From Verrucomicrobiota bacterium (lineage in GTDB: Bacteria > Verrucomicrobiota > Verrucomicrobiia > Limisphaerales > SXTU01): a stretch of 64,000 bases of DNA. The stretch is taken from positions 1-64,000 of the forward strand of contig VHDH01000002.1 of the NCBI GenBank assembly GCA_016871445.1. The letters are read 5' to 3'. The notes beneath the pieces were generated by a model. That model did no database searches. It was not told the DNA's origin and worked only from the letters and a program-made list of their open reading frames with translations. Below, one piece after another: positions 38,235-56,383 of this stretch; the first letter of the stretch is position 1, and every line of letters begins with the position of its first letter. Made by a program: the position numbers and the translations under genes.

Positions 38235-41200
38235 TTAGGGCACCACCAAGAACCGGTAGTAAAGGTTCTTGTTCGTCAGTGCACCGGAGTGGATGAAGCT
38301 GATCACCCCATCCAGCGGGGCGGTGAGGTTCGTCAGTACCGTCCAATCGGTGGCGGCCAAATTGGTACGATATTGGACCTGATATTTCTCACCGGGGACG
38401 CCGTTGAGGCCAAAGCCGAAGCCCGTGCCGCCGGTGAGCATGCTGGCACCGGGCGGGCGAACGATCTGGAGCGGGGTACTCCCGACCAGCACGCCATTGA
38501 CCGATTGCCGGGCCATAATGTTGTAGGTCACATGCGTCGTGCCAGGGTTCAGCACGCCGAAATACCAATCGCCAGCCAAGCTCGGCAGGCTCGCATTGGT
38601 GCGGAGGCTGATCCATTCCGGGGCGTTGTTCGAACGGGCATTGCCAAAATCGTAGGTCGTCGCGAGCGGGAAGGCGTTGCGGCGCACCACGAGATCGCCG
38701 TTGCCGTTGAGGCCGGTCACCTCGAAGAGCAGCGCCTTTTCCTCGGCGGGCACGTTAAGCTTGTAGAGGGTATTGGGCGCGTTGCCGGGGCTGGTGACGC
38801 CTGCGTGCGTCTGGCCGTTGGCGGAAGTGACAACGGTGTAAGGCGTGGCGTTGGTGACGGTGGCGCGCACGGTGAAGTTCACGGGCGCGTTGTGTGCATT
38901 ATGGACGCCCAGCAGCCACGTGCCCGGCGTGAGCGCGTTGGTGGACGCGCCGTTGGTCACGAGGAAGATCTGCTCCGTGCCGACGAACGGGTTGGCGCTG
39001 GCGTAATCGAAGCCACCGGGCCCAGGCAGCGATGCTGGACCGTTGGAGCGGCGCAGGTAGAGGTTCACGTTGCCGCTGGCGGCGGTGATCTCGAAAAGCG
39101 CAGCGGAGGCGTTGGGCGGGACGACGAACGCGTAGCGGTTCACGGTGGCGTTCGCAAGCGCGAGGCCGTTGACGGGCACGCCGACGGCCAAGTCGGTGAT
39201 CTGCGGCGGCAGTTCCGTGCGGTCAAAGCTGACCTCCACGGTTACTTCGACGGACGCGCCGAGGTTCATCGGCGTGATGGCCACGTAATACTCGCTGCCG
39301 GGGCGCAGCCGGGCAAGCGCGTTGGCGTTAGTGGAAACAACGAACGAGCCGGTGGAAGCACCGCTAAACATCTCACGCGTGCCGGGCTCACCGTCCGCAG
39401 GCACACCAGACGCGTGGAATGAAACGCGCACCGGCCCATTTGCGGTGACGAGGTTGGTGGCGGCGGTGGCAGCGGAGGGCACGGGCACGCGGAAATACCT
39501 CGGCCCAGTGGAGAGGGTGATGGGCGGGAAGGCGGAGCCGGGAGGCAGCGTGAGCGCCACGGTGTTGCTGGCCGCGTAGGAGAAGTTGAGACTCCACGAG
39601 AGCACCATGCCATTGGTGCCGACCACGTTCGTGCCGCCCGCGCGCGTGTCGGTGATCTGCAGCCGCCACGCGGTGTTGGTGATTAGAACGTTGGTAGTGT
39701 TCGTGTAGAAGACGCTCGTACCCCAAGTGGTGTCGCCCACGAATACGTTCAACGACTCCTCGGGTTGATAGAAGTTCTTTGCACGATAACGGAAGATGGC
39801 AGCCTGCCGGTCGCTGGGGTTACCATCCCCGGGGCCTTCCACGGCCACGTAAATGTCCACGCCATCGGTGGTAATGGCCTTCCCGAAGTTCAGGCCGTTG
39901 GTGATGTTGTTCGTGATGACCGAGATGACCGCGAGGGTCTGGAGGTCAATTTCCATCAGAAAGGCGTCGCTCGTCGCGCCACTGCCCACCGTGCCGACAG
40001 CATAGGCGCGATCCAACTCCTCGATGGCGATCAAGCCACTCAACTGACTCGGCCGACCCGTACCGAAGCTGTAACTGGTCGTCAATCGCGGCGTGCCCGC
40101 CAACGTCCAGCTCTCGATGAGGCAATTACTGGCTGCCACACTGCCAGCAAAATAAGTCGCGCCGGCGGCGAGGATGTTCGTGCCATTCACAGCCACAGCA
40201 TTGTAGTGGCCGCTGGTCAGCGAGTTGGTGGCCCAGCGCAGCGTGCCGTTGGTGGTTTCCAAACACAGAAGGAACGGCTGGTTGTTCGTGGTCGACACTA
40301 CGTCACTTATGTTCGTGAAGCCGGCAGCCACGACGTTCGAGCCGTGCATGACGGCGAGCGCGTGGCCGGGCATGTGCAGCGAAGTCGGGGCCTGGACATA
40401 CACACGTGGGGCAACGAACGGCCCGGCCAGCGGCATGGCGGGAGCGGAGATGCTCGTGACCACGCCGGCGGTGAGGCCAACCGTCACGGCAATATTACGG
40501 TTGGCCGGAGTGGGATTGAGCGGGTCGTGGATCCTCACCACCGGTGCGGTGGTATAACCTGCGCCCCCAGAGCCAATTACTAGATTCGTGATCGCCCCCG
40601 AGCCATTGGTCACGGCGCGGATGGATGCCGCCGGCAGATGCCCGTAGGTCCAAACCGGCTGACCGTTGGTGGCAAACTTGGTGAGAAACATGCGGTCATA
40701 TGCGGCAAACCCGCCCACGGAGTTCGTGCTGAACTGCGCGGAGCCGACAGCATAAAGCCAGTTCGTGCCGACCCCGTTAGTGCCGAGGTGTCGGTACGAG
40801 GCGATGCCAGTGAAGGTGTCGCGGCTGGCCGGGCTGTTGCCAGCCAACTCGGTGCCGAACACTGAGTTCGTGATGCCACGCGAAATGAATACGGGCGGCG
40901 CTCCCATGATGGGGCTATTAGTCGGTCCGTTGAAGGGGAAATAGGCTACGAAAGCATTCGTCGGCATGCCAGTTTGGTAGGGTGCGACGACGCGGATGCT
41001 ATTGTTTCCCGAGTCGGCGACGAAGAGCGTGCCAAAGCGGTCCGCCACCAGACCACGCGGAGTATTCAACCGGGCGGTGGTCCCGATTTCGTTGTTTACA
41101 TTGCCCGAAGAACTGCCGGCTATGGTCTGCACCTCTCCGGAGACCGTCACGCGGCGAAGGCGGTGCGACCCAGCGTCAGAGACATAAAGGTTGCCATAGC

Positions 41201-44200
41201 CGTCACGGGCAATACCGGAGGGCTGGTTGAACCGGGCCGACCCTCCCACGCCATCGGTGGTGCCCGCTGTACCAGTTAACCCGGCTAGCACAGAACCCAA
41301 ACCAGACAACGAGACTATGCGGTGGTTCCCGGTGTCCGCGACATAAACGTTGGTGCCGACCACGGTCACAGCTCGTGGCAAATTGAGGCCCAACAACGCG
41401 ACGGGCAGCGTGACACGGCCCACGGTTCCGTTCGTGTCAATGGTGCGGATCAGGCCATTGCCGGTGTCCGCGATGTAGAGAACTCCGTTGTTACCGAGGT
41501 GCAGGCCACGCGGGGCATTAAAGCGGCCTGCGGCAAAGGACGGGGTATCATTGCTGCCGGCGTTTGCTGGCGGGGCCACCGCAGTATCGCCCCAGACCTG
41601 CAAGAAGGTGCCATTACCACTGTAACGCTTGATGAGGTTATTGCCGGTGTCGGCTACATAGATGTCGCCGTTGGTGGCCACGGCCAAGGCCGCCGGCGAG
41701 TTAAGGGTGGCGAACGACGCGGGCACGGCGGGGGCCAGCGTCAGCGGTTCATAGGTGCCGTTTGTATCGGCCGCGTTGGGCGTGTTGAACGGATTGGGCA
41801 GCGTGAGGGCTTGGCGAAACTTGAGGATACGGTTGTTAGCCGTATCCGCGACATAGACCATATTCGAGGCGTCTAACACCACGCCCTGTGGCCCACTCAA
41901 GGTGTTCGGGGTGGGCGCGGCAGTTGCGGGCGGCGGCCGGATGGCGCCGGACACGAAGTTGTCCACAGCAAAGGTCACGCCGTTGCTGCGGAGAACGGTG
42001 AGGGTGTTGGTCCAGGTCGAACCGGCGGCTGCGTTCGCCGTTGGGTTCATCGCCACGCGCAGGAATCGAGAAGACCCGCGATAAACCAAATTGGTGGTAA
42101 AATTTACCGGAGCCGGAGCGAGGTCCATGAGAGTGCGACCTTCATATTGCACGAGGATGTGATCGGGATTCGTATCAGAGAAGTGGGCCAGATCGACGGA
42201 GCCCGACGTGGATCCAAGGTCGATATCATAGACCTGCCGCGTGTTGGTGCCAGACCAGGTAAGTGCGGTGGGTGGGAAATAGTTACGGGTCTGGCCCACG
42301 GCGAAGACGCCGTCCACGTTCAGCGCCACGCCGTTAAAAAAGGTCTGTTCGGCCAGCGGTGTGGTGGTGCCGTTGTTGGTGCCACGATAACCGCTCAGGG
42401 AGCCGGGCCAGAAGTTGGTCACGGTCCAATTAGTAACGGGGAAAAAGGACAGGTTAGTCGAAGTCGGGGTGGTCACCAGGTTTGAGGTGTACCGATTGGT
42501 CACAATCGGAGTCACATAAGCGGCCACGAAACCATCATTGGTACTGTTGCGGTTAACCTTGCCAGCCGTGACAAGCTGCTGGCCGAAGTGCGCTAGCCCG
42601 CCGGGCGACTCGTGCGGCGAAGTTACCATCGCGCCGTGGCCAAAGAGCAAGTTAGTCATGCTGGTGACCAGCGACGGCGGCGAGACGACGGCGGAATACG
42701 GCGCGGGCACGAACTTGATGGGCTGTAAGCGGCCGAGGTTGTGGAAACCGTTGGCGGCGCTGCCATTGGTGTCAATGTGGGTCACGAAGTTCGTGTTCTC
42801 CGTGAAGTTGGCGCGCAGGTCGGCGGTGGTGACGCCGTTGGTGCCGCCCCGGTTTTCGAAGAGTAATGCCTTGCGGCCGCTGGGCGCGACCAAGTGCAGC
42901 ACCAGGTCAGAAATACGCGGGTGACGGATGGCCACGCCCACATCGAGGCCCGCGATAACCCGGTTATCCGGAACGTTTAAAAAGAGGTTGGTGGTGTATT
43001 CGTCGAGGAGCGGAATGGCGACGTTGGTGTAATTGAACGAGACATCGGCCGTGGCGAGATTCACGCCTAGGGTGTAGCGCAACGTGAGGGTGAGCATGCT
43101 CGCCGAGTTGTTCACGATCCGGAAGTTCCAAGGACCCGGCGAGAGCGGGGGCGAAGAGATGGGCGAAATGCGCAGATGCGGAAAGAGGGTGGCATCGAGG
43201 TTATCTAGGTCGAAGGTGCCCAAGCCGTTAGAGCCCGAGGTAGGCACGCCCGCGCTGGGTGCACTGGCCAGAATATCCACCCCGTTGCTGGAGGCGGGAC
43301 CGGGCACACCGGCCAAGCCGCCCACGATGTCCACATCAAGGTTAGTTGCGTAGCTCGGCACATTGAAGAAATCCACGAAGGACTGGCCGGCCGCGAGATC
43401 GAAGGTGCGAAAGAAGACGTTGGGATTAGTGCTGCTGGATTGACCAATGAACGGGACGATAAAGAGATCCGCGGTGGTCACCCTGCCGGTCAGGAACGGC
43501 GCGTTGTCGTAAATCTCAAAAATCCACAAACCCACACCGTCCTGCCCCAAGAAGTCGGTCACATCGCCGGGGCCGTCGGCCGGGTTACGGAAAGAGTCAT
43601 AGACGAGGTTGTTGGTGACGTAGCCGCCGGGGGGGGTGGCCCCTAGGCCCACAGAGTGGTTATTCAGGGTGACAACCGTGCCATTGTGCGTGAGCGTGCC
43701 CACGAGATCGCCAAGGTTTTCATGTACGATGATGTTCGACATCGTGATGTTTTGCATGATGACGTTGGTGGGCAAGATGCCATAAAGCGTGACGCCGCCG
43801 GGGTTTTCGGGCGTGCCATCAGGGATATCCATGGGCACGGGGAACAAGACAACCTGAAAACCGCGGTTGGTGCCGTTGGTGTTGTTGAAGAAAGGGAACG
43901 GAGCCGACGCGCCGAAGAAGCCGTAAGTGCCGCCCTGCTGGTCCTCAGACTTAATGCCGACATAAAAGACCTCTCCAAGGGAAGAATTAGTAACGCTGAA
44001 CAGCTCATAGCCGCCGCGGTTGGTGGAGCGGAAGGTGTTGGCATGCGAAAGGACGGCGGGGTCGAGATTGGTCAACCCAGCAGCTCCAGAGCCTGGATAC
44101 CCCAGCGAACTGCGCGTGACGTAGAGGTCAATGTCCGCGTCGCCGTTACGGGCGCGGGCGAGGTTGGGCGGCAAGAAGGTGGAGAAGGCCACGAACGGCC

Positions 44201-46919
44201 CGCCAATGACGTTGGGCAACTGAACGACGTTGGTAATTATATTCGTAACGCCGGCAGTGATGTTGGTAGAGAGGTTGGTGACCGTGGGGCTGGGCGCGTT
44301 CTGGTTGGTAAACACGTAGAAGTTCCACTGGTTGGTCAGACCGTTGGTGTTTGCGTTCGCCGTGCCGTTGAGGGTGAACAACGGCGAGTTAGCCCCGACA
44401 CGCTCGTTGAGATAGGGAATGCCGTTGGTGACAACGTTGACGGGGCGGTTGGTGAAGCCGTAGCCACCGCCTGCCGCTGGGAAGGTGACGGTCACGCTAG
44501 TGGCCGGGTTGTCCGTGGAGATAACCAGCGAGTAATCCTGCGCGACCTGGTTGGTATTCCCAGAAACGGCGTTGACGTTGACCTTCCGGCCAATGACATA
44601 CACGCGGTAAACGTTGGCAGCCGTGTTCGTGAGGGAGATGAAGACGTTCTCCACGTTGTTAACCGAGTCGCGCTGGCTGATGCTGCTGGGCGTGGTGGGC
44701 TGGGAGACAACGCTACCGGGGGCAATATTGTTGCCCTCGAACTGTGAGCCGTTGACCACCAAGTTGGTGACGTAAAGGTCAAGGTCGTTGACCAGTTTGA
44801 CGGACGAGATCGGGTTGCCCGGCGGATCCGTCCACGCCAACGTGATCTTGAGGTTGTTCGTGCCGCCGGGGATGGGGGGGACGGAGACATCAAAGGCGTG
44901 GTACTCGCCAGAGGCGACGTGATTGGTGAGGAAGGCGTTCTCCTCGACCAGCACGATGGGCGCGGTGGCCGAGGCGGAGGCGGACAGCAGGGCGATCCCG
45001 GCGACGGACGGCAGCGTATTGCTGACCGATGGGATGCCCCAGCCTTGGTGTGTGACGGGGTTGTTAACCGCAAAGTCATAGGCGGGACCGAGGGACTGGG
45101 CGCGGTTGATGAGGAGCGCCTTATTCAACGAGGGGCGCAGTCCGTTGGTCCGACCAAAGTTCGAGCGGAAGAACTCCTCCACCAGCGCGAGTACGCCGGA
45201 GACCTTGCCAGCCGCAAGGCTGGTGCCGGACTCGTATCGCCACTGTGAATTGCCCAAGGCCGCGTCCGCCGGCTGCGGGTTGGTGAAGGTTGACGCGCGC
45301 AGGGTGGCGATGTACTGGCCGGGAGCAACTAGGTCGGGTTTGAAGCGGCCCGCCGTGCCTTCGATGCCAACGCCCACGTTACCGCGGCTGGAAAAATCGG
45401 AGACTTGGCCAAAGCTGTCGGAGCGGGCGTTGGCCTGCGGGTCGTTGGTTGAGTTGGGTACGAGGCGGAACAACTCGGAGGACCCGACGGTGATCACGTT
45501 CTTGGCGTTGCCGGGCGAGGCGATGCTGTCGGCCGCGCCGCCGAGGCCGCCGGAGTTGGCGTTGCCCGCGTTGCCGGCGGCGAAGACATGCGTTTGCGGT
45601 TGGATATTGGTGCGCCAGTCGAGCGCGTCGCGCACCTTCTCGTCGTAGAGCGCGGAATTGATGTCGTAAGTCGAGACCGGATAGCCCCAACTGTTGTTGA
45701 CGATGAAGATGTTGGTGGCGAGGTAACCGTTGGTGATGAGCCAAAGGTTGCCGTAGTTGGTGTAGTCGGTGGCGTAGATCGAGAGCGGGTAAAGCCGGGC
45801 GCCGGGGGCGATGCCGCGATAGGTCGCGCCCGCGATGGAGCCGTTGGTGGCGGTAGGTGCGGTGCTATCCGTGCCGACGATGGAACCGGCGACCGCCGTG
45901 CCATGGCCGTCCGCGTCGGCCGACGGGCTGAACGCATTCACAAAAGTGCGGCCGGAAAGCTGCGGGTGCGCCAAGTCGACCCCCGAGTCCACATGCGCGA
46001 TGAAGACGCCGGCGCCAGTCAAGCCGAGCCAGTTGCCGCCCGACGTGCCCGTGGACACATCCAAGCGCACGCGGGAGAGATCGTTCATCAACACGGGCGA
46101 GTGCCACGCCTCGATGTTCTGCACGGCGGGCATCTGCGCCAGCGCCACGAGGCTGCCGGCGGGCGGCGCGATGGTAACGACATGGCCGAAGGGGAACGGC
46201 TGCTCGGCCTTCACCTCTGCGCCGAGCGCGGCAAGGTCAGCCTTCGCGCGAGCCTGTGTGCCATTAAACAACACCAGGTTCAACCAGCGGCCGGCGGGCA
46301 TGGGCTCCTGTCGCACGGCCAGCGGAAGCAACTGCATGTCCAGCTTATAGAACGGCTCAAAGGGCAGCACGCTGTGCACGCGCGGGGCCACGCGAAGCTG
46401 CTGGGCGACGCTGGCACTGGCGCGGACGAGGTAGGTGTTGTTGGGGACGTAACTGACGATTTCTGCCCCCGCGCCCCGCAAGACTTCACGGAACTTGCCG
46501 TCAATGCTCCCACGCGCCTGCACCAGCCAGCTCCCCGGATCGCCCTGCGCGCGCAGGTGCGGTGGGATGTTCAGACGCACCGGTTCGCGGGTCTCAACCA
46601 GCGCGTTGCGAAGCAGCACGGCGGTGTCGCTGCGGAACAATTCGGCATCGGGCCGGACAGTATTGCGGACGCGGAAAGGTAAGTGTGGGTCATCGCCCAG
46701 CGACTTAACGTGCGCGGTGGACGGCGCGGCGGCGGGGACGGCCGGGGCGACAGCGGGGCGGCGACCCGTGAAGCGTTCCCACAGGCCTGGAGCTGCTGGT
46801 ATAGCGGCAGTGCCAGCGGCGGCCTGCTCGCGCGCGCGGCGGCGCTCCCCCTCGCGAAAGAGCAGTGCGGCTCCGATTAGGAGCAGCAATCCGGCCAAAA
46901 ACCAGTTACGGCTTTTCAT
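38235..46919 (-). CDS. Giant modular subtilase with P-domains, NHL propeller and PPC domains
   Basis: 2894-residue exported serine protease. An N-terminal signal/anchor (about 7-20) is followed by a propeptide-like region and an S8 peptidase domain at about 300-620, with Asp311 in AHVDSGVD, His339 in DGHGTAVAG, oxyanion Asn450 in FAAGNAGN and Ser567 in SGTSLAAG. The Pro normally following the Ser motif is Gly. Next are two proprotein-convertase-type P-domains (about 1045-1160 and 1300-1425), a six- or seven-blade NHL propeller at about 1665-1985 with repeats of the YVADTGNN(R/L)I type, a further propeller-like part, two PPC domains (about 2570-2800) and a C-terminal domain (GEKYQVQYRTNL). It lies downstream of the pseudopilin operon on the same strand and may be its cargo (inference). 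Confidence 0.85.
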   Translation of the reverse strand: MKSRNWFLAGLLLLIGAALLFREGERRRAREQAAAGTAAIPAAPGLWERFTGRRPAVAPAVPAAAPSTAHVKSLGDDPHLPFRVRNTVRPDAELFRSDTAVLLRNALVETREPVRLNIPPHLRAQGDPGSWLVQARGSIDGKFREVLRGAGAEIVSYVPNNTYLVRASASVAQQLRVAPRVHSVLPFEPFYKLDMQLLPLAVRQEPMPAGRWLNLVLFNGTQARAKADLAALGAEVKAEQPFPFGHVVTIAPPAGSLVALAQMPAVQNIEAWHSPVLMNDLSRVRLDVSTGTSGGNWLGLTGAGVFIAHVDSGVDLAHPQLSGRTFVNAFSPSADADGHGTAVAGSIVGTDSTAPTATNGSIAGATYRGIAPGARLYPLSIYATDYTNYGNLWLITNGYLATNIFIVNNSWGYPVSTYDINSALYDEKVRDALDWRTNIQPQTHVFAAGNAGNANSGGLGGAADSIASPGNAKNVITVGSSELFRLVPNSTNDPQANARSDSFGQVSDFSSRGNVGVGIEGTAGRFKPDLVAPGQYIATLRASTFTNPQPADAALGNSQWRYESGTSLAAGKVSGVLALVEEFFRSNFGRTNGLRPSLNKALLINRAQSLGPAYDFAVNNPVTHQGWGIPSVSNTLPSVAGIALLSASASATAPIVLVEENAFLTNHVASGEYHAFDVSVPPIPGGTNNLKITLAWTDPPGNPISSVKLVNDLDLYVTNLVVNGSQFEGNNIAPGSVVSQPTTPSSISQRDSVNNVENVFISLTNTAANVYRVYVIGRKVNVNAVSGNTNQVAQDYSLVISTDNPATSVTVTFPAAGGGYGFTNRPVNVVTNGIPYLNERVGANSPLFTLNGTANANTNGLTNQWNFYVFTNQNAPSPTVTNLSTNITAGVTNIITNVVQLPNVIGGPFVAFSTFLPPNLARARNGDADIDLYVTRSSLGYPGSGAAGLTNLDPAVLSHANTFRSTNRGGYELFSVTNSSLGEVFYVGIKSEDQQGGTYGFFGASAPFPFFNNTNGTNRGFQVVLFPVPMDIPDGTPENPGGVTLYGILPTNVIMQNITMSNIIVHENLGDLVGTLTHNGTVVTLNNHSVGLGATPPGGYVTNNLVYDSFRNPADGPGDVTDFLGQDGVGLWIFEIYDNAPFLTGRVTTADLFIVPFIGQSSSTNPNVFFRTFDLAAGQSFVDFFNVPSYATNLDVDIVGGLAGVPGPASSNGVDILASAPSAGVPTSGSNGLGTFDLDNLDATLFPHLRISPISSPPLSPGPWNFRIVNNSASMLTLTLRYTLGVNLATADVSFNYTNVAIPLLDEYTTNLFLNVPDNRVIAGLDVGVAIRHPRISDLVLHLVAPSGRKALLFENRGGTNGVTTADLRANFTENTNFVTHIDTNGSAANGFHNLGRLQPIKFVPAPYSAVVSPPSLVTSMTNLLFGHGAMVTSPHESPGGLAHFGQQLVTAGKVNRNSTNDGFVAAYVTPIVTNRYTSNLVTTPTSTNLSFFPVTNWTVTNFWPGSLSGYRGTNNGTTTPLAEQTFFNGVALNVDGVFAVGQTRNYFPPTALTWSGTNTRQVYDIDLGSTSGSVDLAHFSDTNPDHILVQYEGRTLMDLAPAPVNFTTNLVYRGSSRFLRVAMNPTANAAAGSTWTNTLTVLRSNGVTFAVDNFVSGAIRPPPATAAPTPNTLSGPQGVVLDASNMVYVADTANNRILKFRQALTLPNPFNTPNAADTNGTYEPLTLAPAVPASFATLNSPAALAVATNGDIYVADTGNNLIKRYSGNGTFLQVWGDTAVAPPANAGSNDTPSFAAGRFNAPRGLHLGNNGVLYIADTGNGLIRTIDTNGTVGRVTLPVALLGLNLPRAVTVVGTNVYVADTGNHRIVSLSGLGSVLAGLTGTAGTTDGVGGSARFNQPSGIARDGYGNLYVSDAGSHRLRRVTVSGEVQTIAGSSSGNVNNEIGTTARLNTPRGLVADRFGTLFVADSGNNSIRVVAPYQTGMPTNAFVAYFPFNGPTNSPIMGAPPVFISRGITNSVFGTELAGNSPASRDTFTGIASYRHLGTNGVGTNWLYAVGSAQFSTNSVGGFAAYDRMFLTKFATNGQPVWTYGHLPAASIRAVTNGSGAITNLVIGSGGAGYTTAPVVRIHDPLNPTPANRNIAVTVGLTAGVVTSISAPAMPLAGPFVAPRVYVQAPTSLHMPGHALAVMHGSNVVAAGFTNISDVVSTTNNQPFLLCLETTNGTLRWATNSLTSGHYNAVAVNGTNILAAGATYFAGSVAASNCLIESWTLAGTPRLTTSYSFGTGRPSQLSGLIAIEELDRAYAVGTVGSGATSDAFLMEIDLQTLAVISVITNNITNGLNFGKAITTDGVDIYVAVEGPGDGNPSDRQAAIFRYRAKNFYQPEESLNVFVGDTTWGTSVFYTNTTNVLITNTAWRLQITDTRAGGTNVVGTNGMVLSWSLNFSYAASNTVALTLPPGSAFPPITLSTGPRYFRVPVPSAATAATNLVTANGPVRVSFHASGVPADGEPGTREMFSGASTGSFVVSTNANALARLRPGSEYYVAITPMNLGASVEVTVEVSFDRTELPPQITDLAVGVPVNGLALANATVNRYAFVVPPNASAALFEITAASGNVNLYLRRSNGPASLPGPGGFDYASANPFVGTEQIFLVTNGASTNALTPGTWLLGVHNAHNAPVNFTVRATVTNATPYTVVTSANGQTHAGVTSPGNAPNTLYKLNVPAEEKALLFEVTGLNGNGDLVVRRNAFPLATTYDFGNARSNNAPEWISLRTNASLPSLAGDWYFGVLNPGTTHVTYNIMARQSVNGVLVGSTPLQIVRPPGASMLTGGTGFGFGLNGVPGEKYQVQYRTNLAATDWTVLTNLTAPLDGVISFIHSGALTNKNLYYRFLVVP

Positions 46920-47173: not shown

Positions 47174-50100
47174 TTAAAATTCAGGCAGTTGTCTGAGACT
47201 CTCGATATAGATCCGCGGCGTGACCACAGGTGGCGCGCCGGCGGGTAGGCGCGGCAAGAGGCCTGGCTCCGGCAAACCCTCCACACGCACCAACGCCCGC
47301 ACCGCAGATTCACCAGTAATTTGGTAATTCGTGACCATTAGCGAGTAAGGGCCACCAGCCACATACACGCCGCGCTCGGCCGGGCGCAGCGACTGGCCAT
47401 AGGCGTAAATCACCATGCGGGGATGTTCTTCAAGGTACATTAGCCCAAGCGTCTGCTGCGGGATGCGCTCGATGGCAACGTCATTAATGGGGTAAGGCAT
47501 CGGTGTCCAATATTGATCATTAGGATCGCCGGTGGGATACTGATTATTGTTCGCTTGCCGCGACTGGTAATACCAGCCTTTCACGTAGGCGAGTTCTCCA
47601 TTCCCGTAGAGCCTAAACGCGTAAGTCTTAGGAACGCCCAAAAATGGCGACTGCACGCTCAACTCCGGCGTGCTGAGGATGCTGCCCACCTTAGTAAAGG
47701 AGCGCTGCGGGAACGACTCCCAGTCCGTCGGCACCGCCTCTGGCGGGCCGGCCGGGCCGCTGCGCAGCGCGTAAAAAGACGTACCCAACCGTTCGACCAA
47801 ATCACCCATGTTATAGATGCCTGCGGGGTTCCATGAAGCGAGTGTGGTCCAATTAGCAAAGTTACCGACACTGACCTGCGTGAACGGGTTCTGGTTTATT
47901 GGAATCGTACCGGCGACCGCCCGGTAGTAGCTCACGAAACCGTACGGACCGTTAAAGTAGGCCACCATGTCCCCAGCACTATAGTTTAGGGTTGGCTGCC
48001 ACATGGGGATGCGCTGCTTGGCTTGGATCAGGCCATTGGTGAGGCTACCGATGAGGTTGGAAAGCGGCGCGGAAGCCGGTTCGATGGTGATGGGGACTAG
48101 AGTAACGCCGCTATTGGACAGGACAAGCGTACCACCCAACGCTGCTGCCCAAGCGAGGCTGTTGGTCTGATTGACGGAGAGCAGGCCGCGCGTGGCATCT
48201 GCATTGATGGCCGTGGTGAAGACGTCCACCAGCCGCCAATCGTTGGTCGGCATGGTGCCTGTGCTGCGCGCCCAATAGAACCAGTTGGTCGAGTTCGGGA
48301 TGTCGGACTTGAGGTAGAAGGTTTGCCACGGTGTGCCGCGATGCACGCGCCCGATCCAGCCAAGGTTTGCGAACTTGCGCTGCGGAAAATCCCAGGCATC
48401 AGAATTCCAAGCCCCCGGGTCTTTCAGGCGCATATCGAAAGCCGTGGGTAGAAGATACGGGTTGGGAAGCCCCACTCGGCCGGCCAAGTTTGGCGGCCTT
48501 CCCCAAGGACTATAAAAGTTGTTCGTTCCACCGCTGGGCCGGTAAGTATTTCCCGGGCCAAAATCCAATCTGTAAATTGTTCCCGGCGGGGCCGGCGCAA
48601 AGTTTGGCCTGACTAACTCGACGGTGCTGGATTGGAAAGGATCAGAGATGTCGCGAGTGGTGTGGTGTACCAGCGGGTCGTTGACTTCCCACGACGTATT
48701 AAAAACCACAGTGCGGGTTGGGCTAAAGGGAGCCTGGACGCTAAGGACATTAGGGTTAAGGCTTTGGTTTGGCGGTATGCTTGGTACTCCAGAGAGGCCC
48801 ATCCAGCGCCTAAACCGGTCAACTTGCTGCAGCACATTTGGGCTCGGACTACCGCTTCGCCAACGCTGAATGTTGGGAAGGATCAAATTGGTGGCGACGG
48901 CAATCTGATTGCTGATGCCCCGTGTAATCCCGAACGGCGCGGGTCCCGTTCGATTCGCTGCCCAAAAATCTCCCATATCCAGGCGATCCAAGACCGCAGC
49001 GGCGGGGTTCGTAACCAAAGGACCCGGACCTGCAACCCGAAGCGCGGCGGCGAGGTTCATGCTGGCGGTAAGGTTGGTGAGGTTGACGAAGTCAACCACA
49101 CGGTTGTTGTCCACGAGCGCGAAGATAATTGAGTTAGTGATCGTGATGCTCAGCCGCAGGTCGGGGAATCCGTTGGAGCGGTTGAAGATGCTTGGGCCAC
49201 CGGAGGCAGAACCGGCCGGGATGAAGCCGCCGTTGGTGAAACCCGCGAGCGGCGGATAGTTGGTGGCATAGGCGTAACCTTGCGCCAAGTTGGTCAAGGA
49301 GAGCTGCGGGACGTTGGTAAAAAAGAAGCTCTTGAACGCCGCATACCCGCTCGCCGTGCCGGCCCAGTTGGAATAGGACTGGCTTAGGCTGTTGGTGGTG
49401 ACATTGGTGTAAATGGGGCCGAACTCGTTGTTCAGGACTAAGCGGGCGATATTGGTGGCCACCAACTGAAGCGGGCGCGGATAAGCTGAGGAATAGGAGT
49501 TCCACGCCTCGAAGCCATAGACGTTGGTCAGCCCAATGATCAGCGACTCGTTGGTCTGAACAATGGCGGTGGCGCTGAAGTTGGTGGCATTTGTCTTCAC
49601 GAACTCCAGCCGGCGCGTGACCGAAAAGCGAGTTTGCACGCCGAACTCGTTAAAATTTGGATACCCCTTTTTAACGCCGATGATGACCGGCGTGCCGGCG
49701 AAGTGGCACAGATCCGGCCCGCCGATCGTGCCGGCCGGGGTGCTATACATCAGCATCCGCGCGTTCGGATCGCTGAGGTCATACACCGGCAGGCTCAGCA
49801 GGTTCGTAGCGTCCGTGCCGTTGGTGGTGTAGCCAATGATGTTGACGAAGTCGTTGCTGGGCCAGAGGTTGGTGTTGGCGAAGCCGAAGAGCGGCCGCCA
49901 CACCGTCGGGTAGGCGGGGGAGTTCCCGTCCGATGTGGTTGCATCGTAAAGGTTGGCGGTCAACTGGAGCAGGCGGTGAACCTCCGGCAGGTAGTAACTG
50001 AACGGGAAGATCGGAATGTTGGTAAGGCTGAGGGTCGCGTTGAGGTTGGTGCTGATAAAATTGGTGCCAAGGTAGAAGTTGGTAGCCACGATGTTAGTGT

Positions 50101-51703
50101 CCGCGCCGCCAAAGCCGGTCCAGTTTGCATTCAAATTCACGCTGGGGGTGAGACTGGCGCGCAGCATCAGCTCGGCGGCGAACGGGAAGAAGGTGTTCGG
50201 GTGCCAGTTGGTGAAGCCGGACGCCTCGCCGCCCACCGAGTCGAACCGTAAGTTCGGCGCGACGTAGCTCACGTTGGGCCAGTTGAGGTTGAATTTGTTG
50301 CTCACCGGCCAAGACTCCGTGCCCAGCACCTCCATCAGCCGGTAGGGCGCACGGCGCAGGGCGTCACCCGCCAGCGTGGGGGCGAGGTTAATGGCAAGGT
50401 TGCTCAGGTTTACGGTGAACGGCTGGTAATTTGGCCGCGTGGCCGAGAACAGCTCAGTCAAGTCAAAGTAATGACGCGCCTGGGGATGGGAGTTGGTGCC
50501 TCCGGGCCATGGAATGTTCGTGGCATCAACATTGTTTATGAACGCGGTGGAGTTCATCAGCGGGCCGTCACCTAAAACATCGAAGTTCGCGTTAGCCAAG
50601 GACAAGGCCGGCCCCGCGCCGAATAGGGCGGCGAGCGTGGGGCGATTGGCGTAACTGTCGTTGTTGCGGTAGTTCAGCAACAGGAGCGCATCGCGAAACG
50701 CATCCCTCCCGATAGGCGTCGCGGAACTCGGGGCGCCGGCAAGAGCGTAATTGTACAGATAATAGGCTGGGCCCAACTCGGTTAGCATTGCCGCGAGGTT
50801 AAATTCTTGCGGGCCAAGACCGAGGTTTCGGTAGTAACCCTCGGTGTTCAGGCCCAGACGCTTGGCTTGGTTGTGGATAAGATTGAGGTCCATCGCCTTG
50901 CCCGCGGGCGCAATGAGGTAAGCATAACGGCTCACGAAGCGGTTGTTTGGCCCATGTGGCTGGTCGGGATTTTCGAGCTGCCCGATCCAGTGCGGGTCGC
51001 CGGGGTTACGGCGATCCGTCGGGTCAAAGATGCCGTTACGGTTGAAGTCGAGGTAAAAGCGGCCAGCGCGAGACTCACTCAAGAGAACGTTGTTCGGGAA
51101 ACCGGGTGCAGGAAAGGCGCGGTTGTTGGTGAAACTAGGAGAGAATACGGGAACGCGAGGTTTGTATTGGAGGTTGCCGAGATTGACGAGCCACGGATTC
51201 AGGCCGGCGGCCATCGCGTTGGTGTGGTTAACGTTGGTGGGGCTGCTCACCGCCGGGAGAAAGCCCGCCAGGTTCTCGTAGTTGGTGGACACCATCACGC
51301 CGTAATTCCACTTGTCGCCGCTGATGAGCAGGCGCGCGAGGAGGTCCGCTTGGGCGAAATTAAGCGCAGCGTCGCGCGCGACTTGCGACTCACCTTGAGA
51401 GGTGATGGCCTCAATGGCACGGCGCTCGCGTCGCGCCACGCCTAAAAAGGCCACGACCATGAACGTGACGAGCGAGAGCATGATGAGCGTGGCCACTAAG
51501 GCAACGCCGGCGCGCCCGACTCCTTCTCCCTTTGGGCTGCGGGGGAAAAAGCTAGCCGCAGACCGGATCAGGGGGGCGGCCGCTTGTGCCATCGCAACCA
51601 ACCCTTCAACCCGGCCCTCTCCCCCCACTCCGCAAAGGGAGTGGATAAAACGATGCGACGGCCGAGCCTTCAAACCAGGATTAACTTGGCGGGGCAGCTT
51701 CAT
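47174..51703 (-). CDS. Large GspK/PilX-like protein, Verru_Chthon cassette protein A type
   Basis: 1509 residues. After a long leader comes GVALVATLIMLSLVTFMVVAFLG (about 66-88), a pilin-like hydrophobic helix resembling the GspK/PilX start (no Glu at +5), then about 1400 residues of extracytoplasmic beta-rich sequence full of Thr-Asn pairs. Size, position and N-terminus match Verru_Chthon cassette protein A, a family defined in Verrucomicrobium and Chthoniobacter. The ATG at 51703 overlaps the upstream stop (ATGA), so translation of the leader is likely. That leader contains repeat-derived sequence (HSLCGVGGEGRVEGL and FFPRSPKGEGVGRAG). Likely tip or minor component of a pseudopilus; the function is unproven. 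Confidence 0.75.
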   Translation of the reverse strand: MKLPRQVNPGLKARPSHRFIHSLCGVGGEGRVEGLVAMAQAAAPLIRSAASFFPRSPKGEGVGRAGVALVATLIMLSLVTFMVVAFLGVARRERRAIEAITSQGESQVARDAALNFAQADLLARLLISGDKWNYGVMVSTNYENLAGFLPAVSSPTNVNHTNAMAAGLNPWLVNLGNLQYKPRVPVFSPSFTNNRAFPAPGFPNNVLLSESRAGRFYLDFNRNGIFDPTDRRNPGDPHWIGQLENPDQPHGPNNRFVSRYAYLIAPAGKAMDLNLIHNQAKRLGLNTEGYYRNLGLGPQEFNLAAMLTELGPAYYLYNYALAGAPSSATPIGRDAFRDALLLLNYRNNDSYANRPTLAALFGAGPALSLANANFDVLGDGPLMNSTAFINNVDATNIPWPGGTNSHPQARHYFDLTELFSATRPNYQPFTVNLSNLAINLAPTLAGDALRRAPYRLMEVLGTESWPVSNKFNLNWPNVSYVAPNLRFDSVGGEASGFTNWHPNTFFPFAAELMLRASLTPSVNLNANWTGFGGADTNIVATNFYLGTNFISTNLNATLSLTNIPIFPFSYYLPEVHRLLQLTANLYDATTSDGNSPAYPTVWRPLFGFANTNLWPSNDFVNIIGYTTNGTDATNLLSLPVYDLSDPNARMLMYSTPAGTIGGPDLCHFAGTPVIIGVKKGYPNFNEFGVQTRFSVTRRLEFVKTNATNFSATAIVQTNESLIIGLTNVYGFEAWNSYSSAYPRPLQLVATNIARLVLNNEFGPIYTNVTTNSLSQSYSNWAGTASGYAAFKSFFFTNVPQLSLTNLAQGYAYATNYPPLAGFTNGGFIPAGSASGGPSIFNRSNGFPDLRLSITITNSIIFALVDNNRVVDFVNLTNLTASMNLAAALRVAGPGPLVTNPAAAVLDRLDMGDFWAANRTGPAPFGITRGISNQIAVATNLILPNIQRWRSGSPSPNVLQQVDRFRRWMGLSGVPSIPPNQSLNPNVLSVQAPFSPTRTVVFNTSWEVNDPLVHHTTRDISDPFQSSTVELVRPNFAPAPPGTIYRLDFGPGNTYRPSGGTNNFYSPWGRPPNLAGRVGLPNPYLLPTAFDMRLKDPGAWNSDAWDFPQRKFANLGWIGRVHRGTPWQTFYLKSDIPNSTNWFYWARSTGTMPTNDWRLVDVFTTAINADATRGLLSVNQTNSLAWAAALGGTLVLSNSGVTLVPITIEPASAPLSNLIGSLTNGLIQAKQRIPMWQPTLNYSAGDMVAYFNGPYGFVSYYRAVAGTIPINQNPFTQVSVGNFANWTTLASWNPAGIYNMGDLVERLGTSFYALRSGPAGPPEAVPTDWESFPQRSFTKVGSILSTPELSVQSPFLGVPKTYAFRLYGNGELAYVKGWYYQSRQANNNQYPTGDPNDQYWTPMPYPINDVAIERIPQQTLGLMYLEEHPRMVIYAYGQSLRPAERGVYVAGGPYSLMVTNYQITGESAVRALVRVEGLPEPGLLPRLPAGAPPVVTPRIYIESLRQLPEF
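51519..51644. repeat. Two intergenic-style repeat pieces inside the leader of the large pseudopilin-type gene
   Basis: On the minus strand, CACTCCCTTTGCGGAGTG forms a perfect 6-bp hairpin, followed by GGGGAGAGGGCCGGGTTGAAGGG (51602-51644). The second piece, at 51519-51546, reads CCCGCAGCCCAAAGGGAGAAGGAG. Related sequence lies in the leaders of the next two upstream pseudopilin-type genes bearing long leaders (53296-53334 and 54282-54330) and between mrdA and rodA. Confidence 0.55.
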
Positions 51704-52533
51704 TGCAGGCCGGTACGGATGGGCACGTGCAGGTGGAACATGTGCACGGCGTCAACATTAGTAGCGAGGTAAGTCTTAGCGAGGTTGATATTGGGCAGGT
51801 AAACCCGGGCGCGCTCGGCGGTGCGATTATCCACGAACCCTAGTTCGACCTCCACATAAGAGGGGAGCGCATGGTTGGTCAGCACGGCGGCCCACGTCGC
51901 CGTGGGTACGGCAACATTGGTCGCCATCACCGGCACGCCGCTGGTGACGGCGGTGACGCGGAAGTGAATGACGTTGTCCGCGACGCGCTGCCAATAGGCT
52001 GGCGGCGGGAGCTGCAAGAAGAGCCGATTTTGGAGGCTCTGGTCAAAACGGTTTGCGTTGGTGGTCCAGCGCCAAAGCGTGCCCAGCCCGTAGGCGGCGG
52101 GCTGGGTTGGGTCGTTGGGGTCGGCCACACGGTAGCTCACGCCCATCCAGTTGAAGGGCGTAGCGGCTGGATCGAGCGAGATGAAGTAGAGGTCCTGCAA
52201 GAGGTTCTGCTGCACGACGTTCGTCCCGTTGTTGATCATCGCGAATGAGCCGGCAGACCAGTTGGTGCTGGTATAGAAGTTGACCGCCAGCATGCCGGCC
52301 GCAGAATGCCCAGCCGCCATCTGCGAAACATCCCGCTGGATTAGGTGCGCCGCCGCACGACCGGTCTCAAACTTGTCCACCTCACGTACCGCCTTGCGCA
52401 TCTGCGTCTGCGTGCGATCGAACATCTGGTAGAGCGCCAGAATGATGAACGAGATGAGACTCACCGCCACGAGCAATTCGAGGACGGTCACGGCGCGAAC
52501 GCTGGGACGAAAAATCTGGCGGTGGAGGTTCAT
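51700..52533 (-). CDS. GspJ/PilW-like pseudopilin, Verru_Chthon cassette protein C type
   Basis: 277 residues with a short leader and a type IV prepilin motif: MNLHRQIFRPSVRA, then VTVLELLVAVSLISFIILALY with Glu at +5. The length, and the region after the helix (QMFDRTQTQMRKAVREVDKFETGRAAAHLIQRDVSQM, read in parts), are typical of GspJ/PilW minor pseudopilins. Start and stop each overlap the neighbouring genes by four bases (ATGA), so it is translated with them. It is probably a minor pseudopilin in a complex with the genes on either side; the assignment to cassette protein C rests on size and neighbours. Confidence 0.78.
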   Translation of the reverse strand: MNLHRQIFRPSVRAVTVLELLVAVSLISFIILALYQMFDRTQTQMRKAVREVDKFETGRAAAHLIQRDVSQMAAGHSAAGMLAVNFYTSTNWSAGSFAMINNGTNVVQQNLLQDLYFISLDPAATPFNWMGVSYRVADPNDPTQPAAYGLGTLWRWTTNANRFDQSLQNRLFLQLPPPAYWQRVADNVIHFRVTAVTSGVPVMATNVAVPTATWAAVLTNHALPSYVEVELGFVDNRTAERARVYLPNINLAKTYLATNVDAVHMFHLHVPIRTGLQ

Positions 52534-53384
52534 TGGCCCCGGTAGGTTGTGCTATGGAACAACTGTCCGCCGTAGGTGCTCACCTCTAACTGTCCGCTGA
52601 CGAGCGTACGCACCACTACTTGGCGCTCGCCCACTCTCCAAGGGGTCGAGGTTGAGTCATACACCGGCCAGGAAAAGGTAAGCTTTACTTCATATAGATT
52701 GTTAACGAGGAAGGTCGTGTGACCACCATCGTTGGTTCGACCGCGCGGATACTCTAATTGCAGGGGGTCCCCCGCGTGGCGACTCACCTCAGAGGTCACG
52801 ACGTAGCTGAACGCCATGTTGGTACCCGCGAGGGCCGAGTCCCCCAAGTTCCCGCTGAGGGCGCGAAAATGCGCCCGGTTCAGGCCACCGTTAGTTGAGT
52901 TGGTCGTGTCCCAGCGAGGGATGCTCAGGCGCGCGATCACATCCAGCGGCGTCCACGCGCCCGCCGGCGGCACGGACGGCCCGCTAAAGCCAAGCAACGA
53001 GCTAGAGAGCACGGTTAGCCCCGCGCTGTTGGGACCGCCCCGGATGGCCTCCAGCAGCAACGCCGCGTCTTGCGAGATTATAGTGTCCTCCCGGTTCTCT
53101 TTCTGCACGTTCAACCCAAACGGCATCACGCCAATGATGGCGACCATTGCAAATGCCACGATGGCGAGGCTCAACGCGACCTCGACCATCGTGAAGGCGC
53201 GAGTGCGGTGGGGATGGCCTTGGGCCTTCACGTAACGAGGAGAAAAAGTGGCCGCCGAACGCATGAGGGTTGTGACCTCCAACGCCAACACGGGCACCTC
53301 CTCACCCCTAGCTTCGCAAACGGCAAGGGAGGAATGTCCACCGCAGGTGCGCGGGGCAGTTAAAGATGGCAGCTTCACCTTCAT
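52530..53384 (-). CDS. GspI/PilV-like pseudopilin, Verru_Chthon cassette protein B type, with long leader
   Basis: 284 residues. The mature protein would begin at Phe64 in RAFTMVEVALSLAIVAFAM, with Glu at +5. The 63-residue leader is far longer than the usual 6-25. It contains LMRSAATFSPR, which matches LIRSAASFFPR in the leader of the large cassette gene, and it spans repeat-like DNA at 53296-53334. ATGA overlaps at both ends support the chosen ATG at 53384, although an internal start nearer the helix cannot be excluded. Probably a minor pseudopilin needed for priming the filament. Confidence 0.76.
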   Translation of the reverse strand: MKVKLPSLTAPRTCGGHSSLAVCEARGEEVPVLALEVTTLMRSAATFSPRYVKAQGHPHRTRAFTMVEVALSLAIVAFAMVAIIGVMPFGLNVQKENREDTIISQDAALLLEAIRGGPNSAGLTVLSSSLLGFSGPSVPPAGAWTPLDVIARLSIPRWDTTNSTNGGLNRAHFRALSGNLGDSALAGTNMAFSYVVTSEVSRHAGDPLQLEYPRGRTNDGGHTTFLVNNLYEVKLTFSWPVYDSTSTPWRVGERQVVVRTLVSGQLEVSTYGGQLFHSTTYRGQ

Positions 53385-54388
53385 TGGATTTGAGGGCGGA
53401 TGGCGCGGCCCCGCCCGGTCACACGATCCAGTCGCACGCCGTAAAGCTCCACTACTCGGGGCGAGCCTCCCACCGGGGCGTAGTTGCCGCTGGCCAGCGT
53501 GCCACGAAAGGTTCGGCCCGCCAGATAGGTCGTCGCGCCATACTGAACGGACGACCCTGGCATGCCGGCCACGAGATACTCGATGTTCGGCACGATGCCG
53601 CCCGCCGGCACGGACACAGCGACCTCAATGGCATCGGTGGGTTCCACGATGTTGCGTGGACCGTTGGCTTCCTTACGGTGTAGGACGCTGCCTTGGATAA
53701 TCGGCAGAGTTATGTCGCCGGGGTGGCGGTGCAGTTGGCCCTGCTCATCGAAGGCAATGAACGGCAGCGGCAGCGCCCACGCGCCGGCCGACTCCTCCAC
53801 TGGGAAACTATAGGTTAGCGGACTGCCCGCAACGTTGTGGAAAATGTTGGGATTGTAGAACGCACTGGTGGGAATGAATGCGCCGTCCGGCAGGGAGTGC
53901 CATTCTGTGAGGTAACGCGGCGTATTCTGGCCCGGTTGGTCGCCCACCTGCCGGGGCGTGAAAACCACGTAACTAGTCAACTGCCCGCCGATCACGCTGT
54001 TCGCAGCCTGATTGGTGAAAAGATAATTGGTTTGAAACGCGGTGAGGCTGCCGAACCAAGACAAGTCGGGTGCGAAGACTACATACACCTTCGTACGCCC
54101 GCTCATGGCCTTGAGCCGAGCGAGGGCCAAGTCGTCCTGCAACTGCCGGGTGGCGGACTCCAATGCTTCACCCTTCTTTCCCGCTTTCGTGAACGACGGC
54201 ACGGTCATCGCTGCCAACATGCCGATGATGCCCAACACCACCAACATCTCGATGAGGGTGAAGGCAGCTACTCTCGAACCCGTCAGCCCCCCCCTCGCCC
54301 CATCCCCCTCCCCTCCTCCAAGGAAGTGAGCGGGCGCCCGCAGTGCGGGTGAAAAGTGGCTCGTCGATTGAGGGGAGGCCACGTTCAT
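53381..54388 (-). CDS. GspH-like pseudopilin, Verru_Chthon cassette protein D type
   Basis: 335 residues. The prepilin motif is AAFTLIEMLVVLGIIGMLAAM, with Phe43 as mature residue 1, Glu47 at +5 and Ala instead of Gly at -1. The 42-residue leader contains HFLGGGEGDGARGGL, a translated stretch of the repeat-like DNA at 54282-54330. After the helix, SATRQLQDDLALARLKAMSGR is typical of GspH/FimT minor pseudopilins. It starts four bases after the upstream gene's stop and overlaps the next start by four. It is part of a six-gene pseudopilin run. Confidence 0.78.
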   Translation of the reverse strand: MNVASPQSTSHFSPALRAPAHFLGGGEGDGARGGLTGSRVAAFTLIEMLVVLGIIGMLAAMTVPSFTKAGKKGEALESATRQLQDDLALARLKAMSGRTKVYVVFAPDLSWFGSLTAFQTNYLFTNQAANSVIGGQLTSYVVFTPRQVGDQPGQNTPRYLTEWHSLPDGAFIPTSAFYNPNIFHNVAGSPLTYSFPVEESAGAWALPLPFIAFDEQGQLHRHPGDITLPIIQGSVLHRKEANGPRNIVEPTDAIEVAVSVPAGGIVPNIEYLVAGMPGSSVQYGATTYLAGRTFRGTLASGNYAPVGGSPRVVELYGVRLDRVTGRGRAIRPQIQ

Positions 54389-54392
54389 AAAC

Positions 54393-55121
54393 TTACTTCC
54401 AACTTAGGATATTGTCCTTATTCGGCTCCGCATTTGCAGCAGTGGATGTGCTAAACATTCCATCCGGACCGAAGGAGAAGACCATCGCAGAGTCCTTAAG
54501 CGCCCAGTTGCCACCGAACTGGACCAATCCCGCGCCCCCTACACTCACGGTGCTGAGGCCATAAACCGGATTGGAAACCCAGCCATCGTAGTTTAAGTCT
54601 AAGGAGACGATGTATGGACTACCCCACGGGTCACGCATCACGCCGTCGGTGCCCAGGCCCGCGCCTGAGGCAGCCCCAGAGGACTTGGCATTAAAATAAG
54701 GAGTGCGCCGCGGGTTTTTGGCATTGCCTTGGATCGAGGCATGGGGCGTGTAGCCCGGGAAGGTTCCAGCCGTGAGGATGACCATCAGTTCCGCGTTGCT
54801 GGCCTGATAGCCGGTGCCGTTGACGATGTTCGTGCCGTAGCCGGTGCCCGTGGTGCCATACGTAAAGTCGCTGCCCACGCCCGCCGCCGCGCTGGATGCC
54901 GGCAGGCGGCTATAGTCGTTCTGATATAAGCTAATGGCACTCTTGATGTCCGCCGAGTCTTTCTGACCCTGCACGGTCTTGGCCCTTTTCTTTACATTGC
55001 CCACGGCGGGCAGAATGAGGCCGGCAAGCACGCCAATAATACTGATGACCACCAGCAACTCGATCAGGGACATGGCCTGCCGAGGTTTGCAGATGCGGGT
55101 GAGATAAGGATTAAGTTTCAT
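54393..55121 (-). CDS. GspG-like pseudopilin
   Basis: From the ATG at 55121 it has 242 residues: leader MKLNPYLTRICKPRQA, then [23 protein letters not shown], with Glu at +5 and Ala before the cut. KDSADIKSAISLYQNDYSRLPA is the major-pseudopilin (GspG) landmark after the helix. Near the end are DGVMRDPWGSPYIVSLDLNYDG and VFSFGPDGMF, the GspG-type C-terminal pattern with a Ca-binding-like DPWG-x-P. The longer in-frame extension upstream overlaps the preceding gene and is unlikely. Together with the next gene this gives the operon two GspG-like subunits. Confidence 0.83.
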   Translation of the reverse strand: MKLNPYLTRICKPRQAMSLIELLVVISIIGVLAGLILPAVGNVKKRAKTVQGQKDSADIKSAISLYQNDYSRLPASSAAAGVGSDFTYGTTGTGYGTNIVNGTGYQASNAELMVILTAGTFPGYTPHASIQGNAKNPRRTPYFNAKSSGAASGAGLGTDGVMRDPWGSPYIVSLDLNYDGWVSNPVYGLSTVSVGGAGLVQFGGNWALKDSAMVFSFGPDGMFSTSTAANAEPNKDNILSWK

Positions 55122-55135
55122 ATGGGTTATTGAAA

Positions 55136-55807
55136 TCAGTTCCAGTTGCCGATGATGTTGGTGCCGCCGCCTCGCCGCTTGAACTCGGCCCAAAGGTCGA
55201 AACTCTTCGGATTGCGACCGTTAACCGGATACGCACGGTAGCGCCAGACGTTGGTGACGCCCATGGGATGCTCGGCGGGAACCCGCAGGAACATCGCGGC
55301 GTTAGCGATGCCAGAAACGGCGTTGGTGACATAAACGAAGGTAGCATTTTCTCCCGAGCCGCCACCGGTGATGAAGGAACGTGCTTTCCCGCTCGGGGGG
55401 GTGACGTTCACGAAGCCAGCCACCGCAAAATAATGATTAACCTCATTTGGACCGGCCGTGCGAATGGTGTGGGCCGGATCCAATTCAGAGGTGAAGTTTG
55501 CACCTGACCGCCGCACGCCACCCAACTCGTAGGCAAGCGGGTTCCAAGCAGGGTTGTTGGAGGCCATTATCGGGTTGTCCGGCGGATAAGCCCCGTACTG
55601 CTTCTTATAACTCTCGATGGCCAGCACGAGTTTGGCGAGTTGAGTCTTTATTGCCGCCTCCTCCTTTTTGCCGCGCGCCGCGGCCAGGCCCACCACCGTG
55701 AGGCTAGCAATGATGCCGATAATCGAGATTACCATCAGCAATTCTATAAGCGTAAATGCCCGCCAGCCGCACCCTAATTGTCCCTTGTTGCTCGTCATCA
55801 TTCTCAT
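55136..55807 (-). CDS. GspG-like pseudopilin, first pseudopilin gene of the operon
   Basis: 223 residues: leader MRMMTSNKGQLGCGWRA, mature start at Phe18 in FTLIELLMVISIIGIIASLTV, Glu at +5. LAKLVLAIESYKKQYGAYPPDNP is the GspG-type segment after the helix. The C-terminal part has FDLWAEFKRRGG and lacks a clear DPWG motif, so it may be the less typical of the two. The ATG at 55807 overlaps the stop of the antitoxin-like gene (ATGA); a second ATG pair two codons on could also be used. It opens the run of six pseudopilin-type genes. Confidence 0.82.
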   Translation of the reverse strand: MRMMTSNKGQLGCGWRAFTLIELLMVISIIGIIASLTVVGLAAARGKKEEAAIKTQLAKLVLAIESYKKQYGAYPPDNPIMASNNPAWNPLAYELGGVRRSGANFTSELDPAHTIRTAGPNEVNHYFAVAGFVNVTPPSGKARSFITGGGSGENATFVYVTNAVSGIANAAMFLRVPAEHPMGVTNVWRYRAYPVNGRNPKSFDLWAEFKRRGGGTNIIGNWN

Positions 55808-56088
55808 CGTATTGCCTTATCTTTGAGTTCTTGTTCCATTCGTTCGCTTAACCACTGCTTGACCATGCTCTGATAGTTCAAAAAGCGCGATCGTGCTAGG
55901 CGCTTGATGCGCGAGAGCATCCGCGGATCCATCCGCAAGGTGACCGTCACCGACTCCGTCGATTCCGCGCCCGCCACCACCGCTGCATCCATCAGCCTCA
56001 GGTCCAACCGATGCTGCTGCCAAAAATCCGCCTCGTCGCCCTCGCTCTCGAAGGCCGGCACCAAGTCCCAATTGGAAATCACCGTCAT
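55804..56088 (-). CDS. BrnA/CopG-type antitoxin
   Basis: 94 residues from the ATG at 56088 (a GTG three codons earlier is an alternative). The C-terminal half has a ribbon-helix-helix-like pattern, VTVTLRMDPRMLSRIKRLA, then NYQSMVKQWLSERMEQEL, which is typical of CopG/BrnA antitoxins found with BrnT toxins. The N-terminal part, with DEADFWQQHRLDLRLM, would wrap the toxin. It starts one base after the toxin stop (TAA-A-ATG) and its own stop overlaps the first pseudopilin gene. It is likely to autorepress the pair, and by position could affect pseudopilin transcription. Confidence 0.72.
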   Translation of the reverse strand: MTVISNWDLVPAFESEGDEADFWQQHRLDLRLMDAAVVAGAESTESVTVTLRMDPRMLSRIKRLARSRFLNYQSMVKQWLSERMEQELKDKAIR

Positions 56089-56089
56089 T

Positions 56090-56383
56090 TTAATCACGCG
56101 TTTCCAGCAGTTGCGTCACGCGCCGCTTGTAAAAGAACTGCTCTTCCTGCAAAAACTCCCGCGCGTAGATTACCCGTACCTGCTTGCCGTTCGTGCGATA
56201 CACGCTGAACACGCCCACCCCACGCGCCGAACGACCCAGATTAAAATAGCGCGCCTGACCCGCAAATCGCGGGGAGTCCGGCAGCAACCGCACCACAAAG
56301 GCGTCTTCAAAGGAATCCTCTACGTCCTGTTGCGTCAGCTCACCCGTTGGGGTGAACGAGGGTTGATTCCAATCAAAATCCAT
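56090..56383 (-). CDS. BrnT-like toxin (DUF497)
   Basis: 97 residues, RelE/BrnT-like small toxin. It opens MDFDWNQPSFTP and ends with the RelE-like strands and basic helix: RYFNLGRSARGVGVFSVYR, then KQVRVIYAREFLQEEQFFYKRR. The R-V-I-x-A-R-E motif followed by a basic helix is the DUF497 signature. BrnT is an mRNA-cutting RNase. The N-terminal K-x-x-x-N-x-x-K-H-G motif of many BrnT proteins is not present, so this is a divergent member. Gene order toxin then antitoxin is normal for brnTA. The 282-base gap upstream should hold the promoter. Confidence 0.7.
   Translation of the reverse strand: MDFDWNQPSFTPTGELTQQDVEDSFEDAFVVRLLPDSPRFAGQARYFNLGRSARGVGVFSVYRTNGKQVRVIYAREFLQEEQFFYKRRVTQLLETRD

Follow-up and report, generated by a model that had tools for sequence, protein, structure and literature searches.

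Why do three pseudopilin-type genes of a single cassette carry long leaders, and why does repeat-like DNA lie within them? An earlier note raised this question for the window (the whole stretch of DNA analysed here, 64,000 nucleotides) and offered two answers: the leader regions might be a tolerated landing site for repeats, or the long leaders might have been adopted for targeting or timing. The cassette lies on the minus strand at 47-56 kb of the window, as do all leader features, and runs from two GspG-like genes through D, B and C to A. The features are listed below in the order of transcription.

55136-55807, minus strand: GspG-like pseudopilin with an ordinary leader (TIGR01710, E=4e-9).
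54393-55121, minus strand: GspG-like pseudopilin with an ordinary leader (TIGR01710, E=5e-11).
53381-54388, minus strand: gene D, cassette D / GspH-like (TIGR01708, E=3e-8; TIGR02596, E=6e-8).
54388-54263, minus strand: leader of gene D, 42 residues, predicted cleavage site A/FTLIEM.
54282-54330, minus strand: one decayed unit in the D leader that is similar to the element core (two overlapping core matches, 2 mismatches).
52530-53384, minus strand: gene B, cassette B-like (TIGR02598, E=3e-5 at 63-92).
53384-53196, minus strand: leader of gene B, 63 residues, predicted cleavage site A/FTMVEV.
53220-53334, minus strand: older, decayed copy of the A-leader element, in the B leader (nhmmer with the A leader, E=0.003).
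51700-52533, minus strand: gene C, cassette C / GspJ-like (TIGR02599, E=4e-6), with an ordinary leader of 14 residues.
47174-51703, minus strand: gene A, Verru_Chthon cassette protein A-like and GspK/PilX-like, without Glu+5 (TIGR02600 and ortholog search).
51703-51506, minus strand: leader of gene A, 66 residues; the helix starts VALVATLIML.
51519-51644, minus strand: palindromic element in the A leader, made up of a triplex-like core half (51602-51644) and a second half (51519-51571).

The long leaders on three genes, A, B and D, were thus borne out. However, the three are not strictly successive as had been stated, since B is separated from A by gene C (52533-51700) with its short leader. 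Genes A and B each begin with an ATG that runs into the stop codon of the preceding gene (ATGA; for A this is gene C), and the D start lies 4 nt past the stop of the gene before it. All four proteins A-D have the Gly or Ala ahead of a hydrophobic helix, usually with Glu+5, by which prepilins and pseudopilins are recognised; B, C and D carry Glu+5 and A does not. PF07963 matched D above its cut-off and B just under it, with no match to A or C. Gene content, gene order and N-terminal helices agree with the Verru_Chthon cassette A-D (TIGR02600, 02598, 02599, 02596), although only the N-terminal part of each protein matches and none of the four reaches the curated NCBIfam cut-off (scores 24-33 bits); for gene A the match covers residues 66-120 (E=6e-6).

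Two neighbouring features were also observed on the minus strand. Gene A is closely followed by the gene of a 2894-residue protein (window 38235-46919) that has subtilase, P-domain and NHL repeats. Two small overlapping ORFs (window 55804-56383) immediately precede the cassette, the downstream one overlapping the start of the first GspG-like gene; the pair is a candidate toxin-antitoxin of BrnT/BrnA type.

A palindrome of about 120 nt, built as an inverted pair, is present in the leaders of both A and B; its core corresponds to the bacterial "intrastrand triplex" repeat. The common segment is about 115 nt long (A positions 65-180 against 53323-53220). When folding was compared with shuffled sequences, the A-leader copy formed one long imperfect hairpin (z=-2.8), although it is degenerate relative to the published triplex core, and the B-leader copy, which is decayed, gave z=-1.05. 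The unit in the D leader folds no differently from its shuffles (z=-0.05), so that its case depends on resemblance to the core. Hence the repeat-like DNA reported earlier stands for A and B, while in D it is weak. The peptide segment L(I/M)RSAA(S/T)F(F/S)PR, which had been noticed in two leaders, is the translated second half of the element. An exact 13-mer from this half has one match only in the genome of the window (G000) and is no high-copy repeat, which shows poor conservation of the second half there.

The earlier note had made its claim depend on further copies of the repeat in the genome, and these exist. The best unlinked copy (C46:11619-11741) is 74% identical to the A-leader element over 123 nt (E=1e-15), and the core GGGGAGAGGGNNGGGGTGAGGG, searched with up to 2 mismatches, has 9 matches in G000 against 0 for the reversed pattern used as control. 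G000 is a low-copy host: in the ten other genomes of the genus that were compared, 25 to 277 copies were found each, with G002 at the top, and the reversed control gave 0-8 across the genus. The element is therefore a short palindrome dispersed in many copies and arranged as inverted pairs, in the manner of REP/REPIN sequences. Two further repeat families found in leaders are likewise dispersed. CTCGGCGGCTACGGG has 81 matches in G010 against 12 for the control, and the family beginning GGTAGGGCG has 21-40 matches in G002, G003, G005 and G006 against 0; for both, the leader copies are among the genome-wide matches. Y1_Tnp domains occur in 8 of 11 genus genomes, with marginal matches in G000. 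The core was found in the flanks retrieved (about 1.5 kb) for 2 of 16 Y1_Tnp loci of the genus and was absent from those of the other 14; no clear link to a RAYT as the mobiliser emerged from these loci.

The same element also occurs inside proteins that have nothing to do with pili. In G000, the highly conserved cytosolic enzyme IspG (GcpE; locus L005, G000:C86:8570-11591) carries a 21-residue in-frame insert of the element, and an alignment with ten relatives revealed a clean empty site in all of them. Since the insert is confined to G000, the element has been mobile over evolutionary time. At another length-variable site, the G000 IspG contains a second variable repeat-like stretch, NSQFPISNSQFPF. 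The core is also read in frame in a GlcNAc 2-epimerase-like protein, an AcrB-type pump, a FabA/acyltransferase synthase and a GDSL/DUF7133 fusion of G000 (L003, L004, L006, L009). Thus, insertions are kept in frame in unrelated functional genes, the empty site having been demonstrated for IspG.

Orthologous cassettes from seven other genomes of the genus have differing content in the same leaders, including other dispersed palindromes. The B leaders of G002 and G005 contain the same element as the A and B leaders of the window; the G002 copy is 74% identical to the A-leader element over 123 nt, and the window B copy is read in the same peptide frame as both. In G005 a second palindrome is nested within the element (L066 3409-3664), where direct repeats of AAAAGGC type are joined by a CCTTTTT partner in inverted orientation and the frame is kept. 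The A leader of G002 and the C leader of G003 carry a GGTAGGGCG...CGCCCTACC palindrome, and the D leaders of G002, G007 and G010 as well as the B leader of G010 a GTAGCCGC...GCGGCTAC palindrome. The B leaders of G004 and G006 are short and free of repeats. On a tree of IspG and cassette proteins the carriers do not group together, and a single ancestral insertion in the B leader was rejected, G004 being the sister of G005 and lacking the element; repeated gains or losses follow from this distribution. A uniform spread of copies would place about 0.05 in the cassette leaders of the genus, a rough figure since selection against insertion in genes is ignored, versus at least 6 gene-and-family combinations seen. 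Repeats are also common to non-orthologous leaders, as with the window A and G002 B leaders above and in L160, where the C and D leaders match at 91% over 88 nt.

Other observations were made among these loci. In L147 and L156 the A and C leaders contain multi-copy repeats shared between loci (80-97% over 30-70 nt) that form tandem-like families, and in L072 (G018), at the start of gene D and upstream of it, the leader encodes a repeated FNVQCSTFNVQCS-type peptide, another low-complexity repeat family. Three public records with this Verrucomicrobiota cassette bear Klebsiella pneumoniae or Proteobacteria titles and are apparently mislabelled (L081, CALQJI020000015.1; L084 and L085, RFSE01 and RFVF01).

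About 90 non-duplicate cassettes, drawn from whole genomes and GTDB contigs and not fully independent as samples, were used for order-wide tests. The frame test was confined to overlap-start genes, in which the start codon shares bases with the stop of the preceding gene, and to those with no less than 120 nt between that stop and the helix. The start was in frame with the helix in 41 of 47 such leaders and the frame was open in 41 of these 41 (p=2.8e-14); with one leader per locus the count was 22 of 28 (p=1.2e-6). Of the six exceptions, four belong to gene D, which in the genus starts some bases past the overlap. When the gap was 180 nt or longer, 33 of 36 leaders were open in the helix frame, and 4 and 5 in the other two frames. 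Strong inverted repeats were present in 20 of 77 overlap-start leaders versus none of 225 mature windows of the same length (Fisher p=1.7e-13), and were far above shuffled sequences; mature regions are thus essentially free of them. Only about a quarter of the overlap-start leaders of at least 75 nt contain a strong inverted repeat, and the remaining long leaders are unexplained or decayed. All 182 leaders examined have Ala or Gly as residue -1, and the last 12 leader residues keep a positive net charge.

As a stand-alone control, the thirty best-scoring prepilin helices of G000, G002 and G005 were taken, a selection that may itself introduce bias. With the nearest ATG as start their leaders are mostly 8-21 residues long, and in the 29 that were scored, the sequence ahead of the helix held no strong inverted repeat. 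In this set, stand-alone pilin leaders were therefore dismissed as a second hotspot; as they are short and repeat-free, gene overlap rather than the prepilin leader as such appears to be the condition for the hotspot.

These data bear on three other explanations. The repeats could be untranslated spacers; the true starts would then be internal and close to the helix, and the long leaders would be annotation artefacts. Some leaders do contain internal ATG or GTG codons, and for intragenic REPs Di Nocera et al. pointed out that many NH2-terminal cases may be extragenic, with translation starting downstream (PMC3733652). Against this, 41 of 47 long gaps stay open in the frame of the overlapping start with the other frames mostly closed, and the start peptides MNL/MKL at the overlap are conserved in short- and long-leader orthologs alike. 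We consider internal starts quite unlikely, and the frame conservation supports the earlier argument that ATGA overlaps point to translated leaders. At about the same low level of probability we place the proposal that the long leaders are adaptive, a peptide or mRNA hairpin under selection setting targeting, timing or the relative output of minor pilins. The very stable fold of the A copy between coupled cistrons and the recurrence of repeats in the same leaders over many families speak for it. Against it, repeat families, positions, lengths and content vary between sister species, repeat-free short leaders occur in G004 and G006, the former beside G005, and the same element lies within unrelated proteins. 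The suggestion that long leaders were adopted for targeting or timing gains no support from these data.

It is extremely improbable that the leaders are ordinary low-complexity GC-rich sequence resembling a repeat by chance. Its one argument is the decay of the B and D copies, neither of which folds more stably than its shuffles, but the unlinked copy, the copy numbers in the genus far over controls and the excess of inverted repeats in leaders over shuffles are at odds with a chance origin. For A and B, the genome and genus copy numbers rule it out; the D copy, taken alone, is weak and could still be due to chance.

That palindromes inserted in frame are tolerated, and that overlapping prepilin leaders are a place where they land time and again, is in our judgement very probably the correct reading. 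The landing site that had been proposed is strongly supported by the different dispersed palindromes in the leaders of relatives, where frame and cleavage residue are kept, and by the near absence of inverted repeats from mature regions. According to this reading, short dispersed palindromic elements would insert around the genome. One that enters a junction of genes A-D would end up in the leader of the downstream gene, because there is almost no intergenic DNA, and only insertions that leave the frame open would survive, because the downstream gene starts at the upstream stop (ATGA). The element would then be translated as part of the leader from the ATGA start, leaving intact the essential leader end, a short basic stretch closing in Gly or Ala before the helix. 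The prepilin leader stays cytoplasmic and is removed by prepilin peptidase (PMC10191384), and extra leader residues hence need not reach the filament. Prepilin peptidase would remove the element-encoded peptide in the cytoplasm, and the mature subunit would be unchanged because that peptide is cut off. Repeat identity, copy number, open in-frame leaders, the kept Ala or Gly, the sparing of mature regions and the empty site in IspG are read directly from the sequence; leader translation, this cleavage and the neutrality of the inserts we infer. The leader would thus stand in for intergenic DNA where selfish elements that keep the frame can settle. A wider version, with leaders of coupled prepilins as a general 'safe harbour' in which some inserts were adopted, the hairpin or extended leader tuning minor pseudopilin output or membrane delivery, seems unlikely.

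Until now, in-frame palindromes were known mainly from Rickettsia and from scattered intragenic REPs, of which the N-terminal ones were doubted as annotation errors. Many repeat families in the same leaders across an order amount to a repeated natural experiment, which argues for translation. A pointer to why such insertions are tolerated is the expected removal of the peptide ahead of subunit assembly, and the limits on selfish DNA inside genes become directly testable. For annotation, the warning is that prepilin leaders of 40-100 residues can be real. The earlier note had not seen such leaders described. In the open-licence literature we found no precedent for inserts in pilin leaders, nor for the cassette name, and no report that several repeat families recur in overlapping prepilin leaders, with sequence-based indications of translation. 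The core itself is a known bacterial repeat.

That repeat is the intrastrand triplex motif (TM/TMECO; Holder et al. 2015, PMC4666352). Judged by sequence likeness, the core is essentially identical to it (GGGGAGAGGGCCGGGGTGAGGG with a CCCTCTCCC arm ahead), genomic copies follow the published order CCCTCTCCC-loop-GGGAGAGGG-loop-GGGGTGAGGG, and inverted pairs occur in both. In E. coli MG1655 the motif is always intergenic, whereas copies here frequently lie inside coding sequence. In their mode of insertion, the present elements are akin to Rickettsia palindromic elements, which are in-frame coding palindromes (RPE; Ogata et al. 2000, 2002, reviewed in PMC10969869): both are dispersed palindromes, in frame in unrelated genes and read as host protein. 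Unlike RPE, they belong to another phylum, and several families recur in overlapping prepilin leaders, from which the encoded peptide is expected to be removed. Intragenic GTAG/CGTC REPs are known from several phyla including Opitutus terrae (Verrucomicrobia), with N-terminal cases suspected to be extragenic (PMC3733652). The likeness is that palindromes occur within genes in a verrucomicrobial genome, in some cases at the N terminus; pilins are absent from the main text of that study, and the frame test here argues that prepilin leaders are translated. Finally, enterobacterial RU elements fused to ORFs (Delihas 2007, PMC2759123) are individual fusions, whereas the leaders described here constitute a recurrent site across a gene family.
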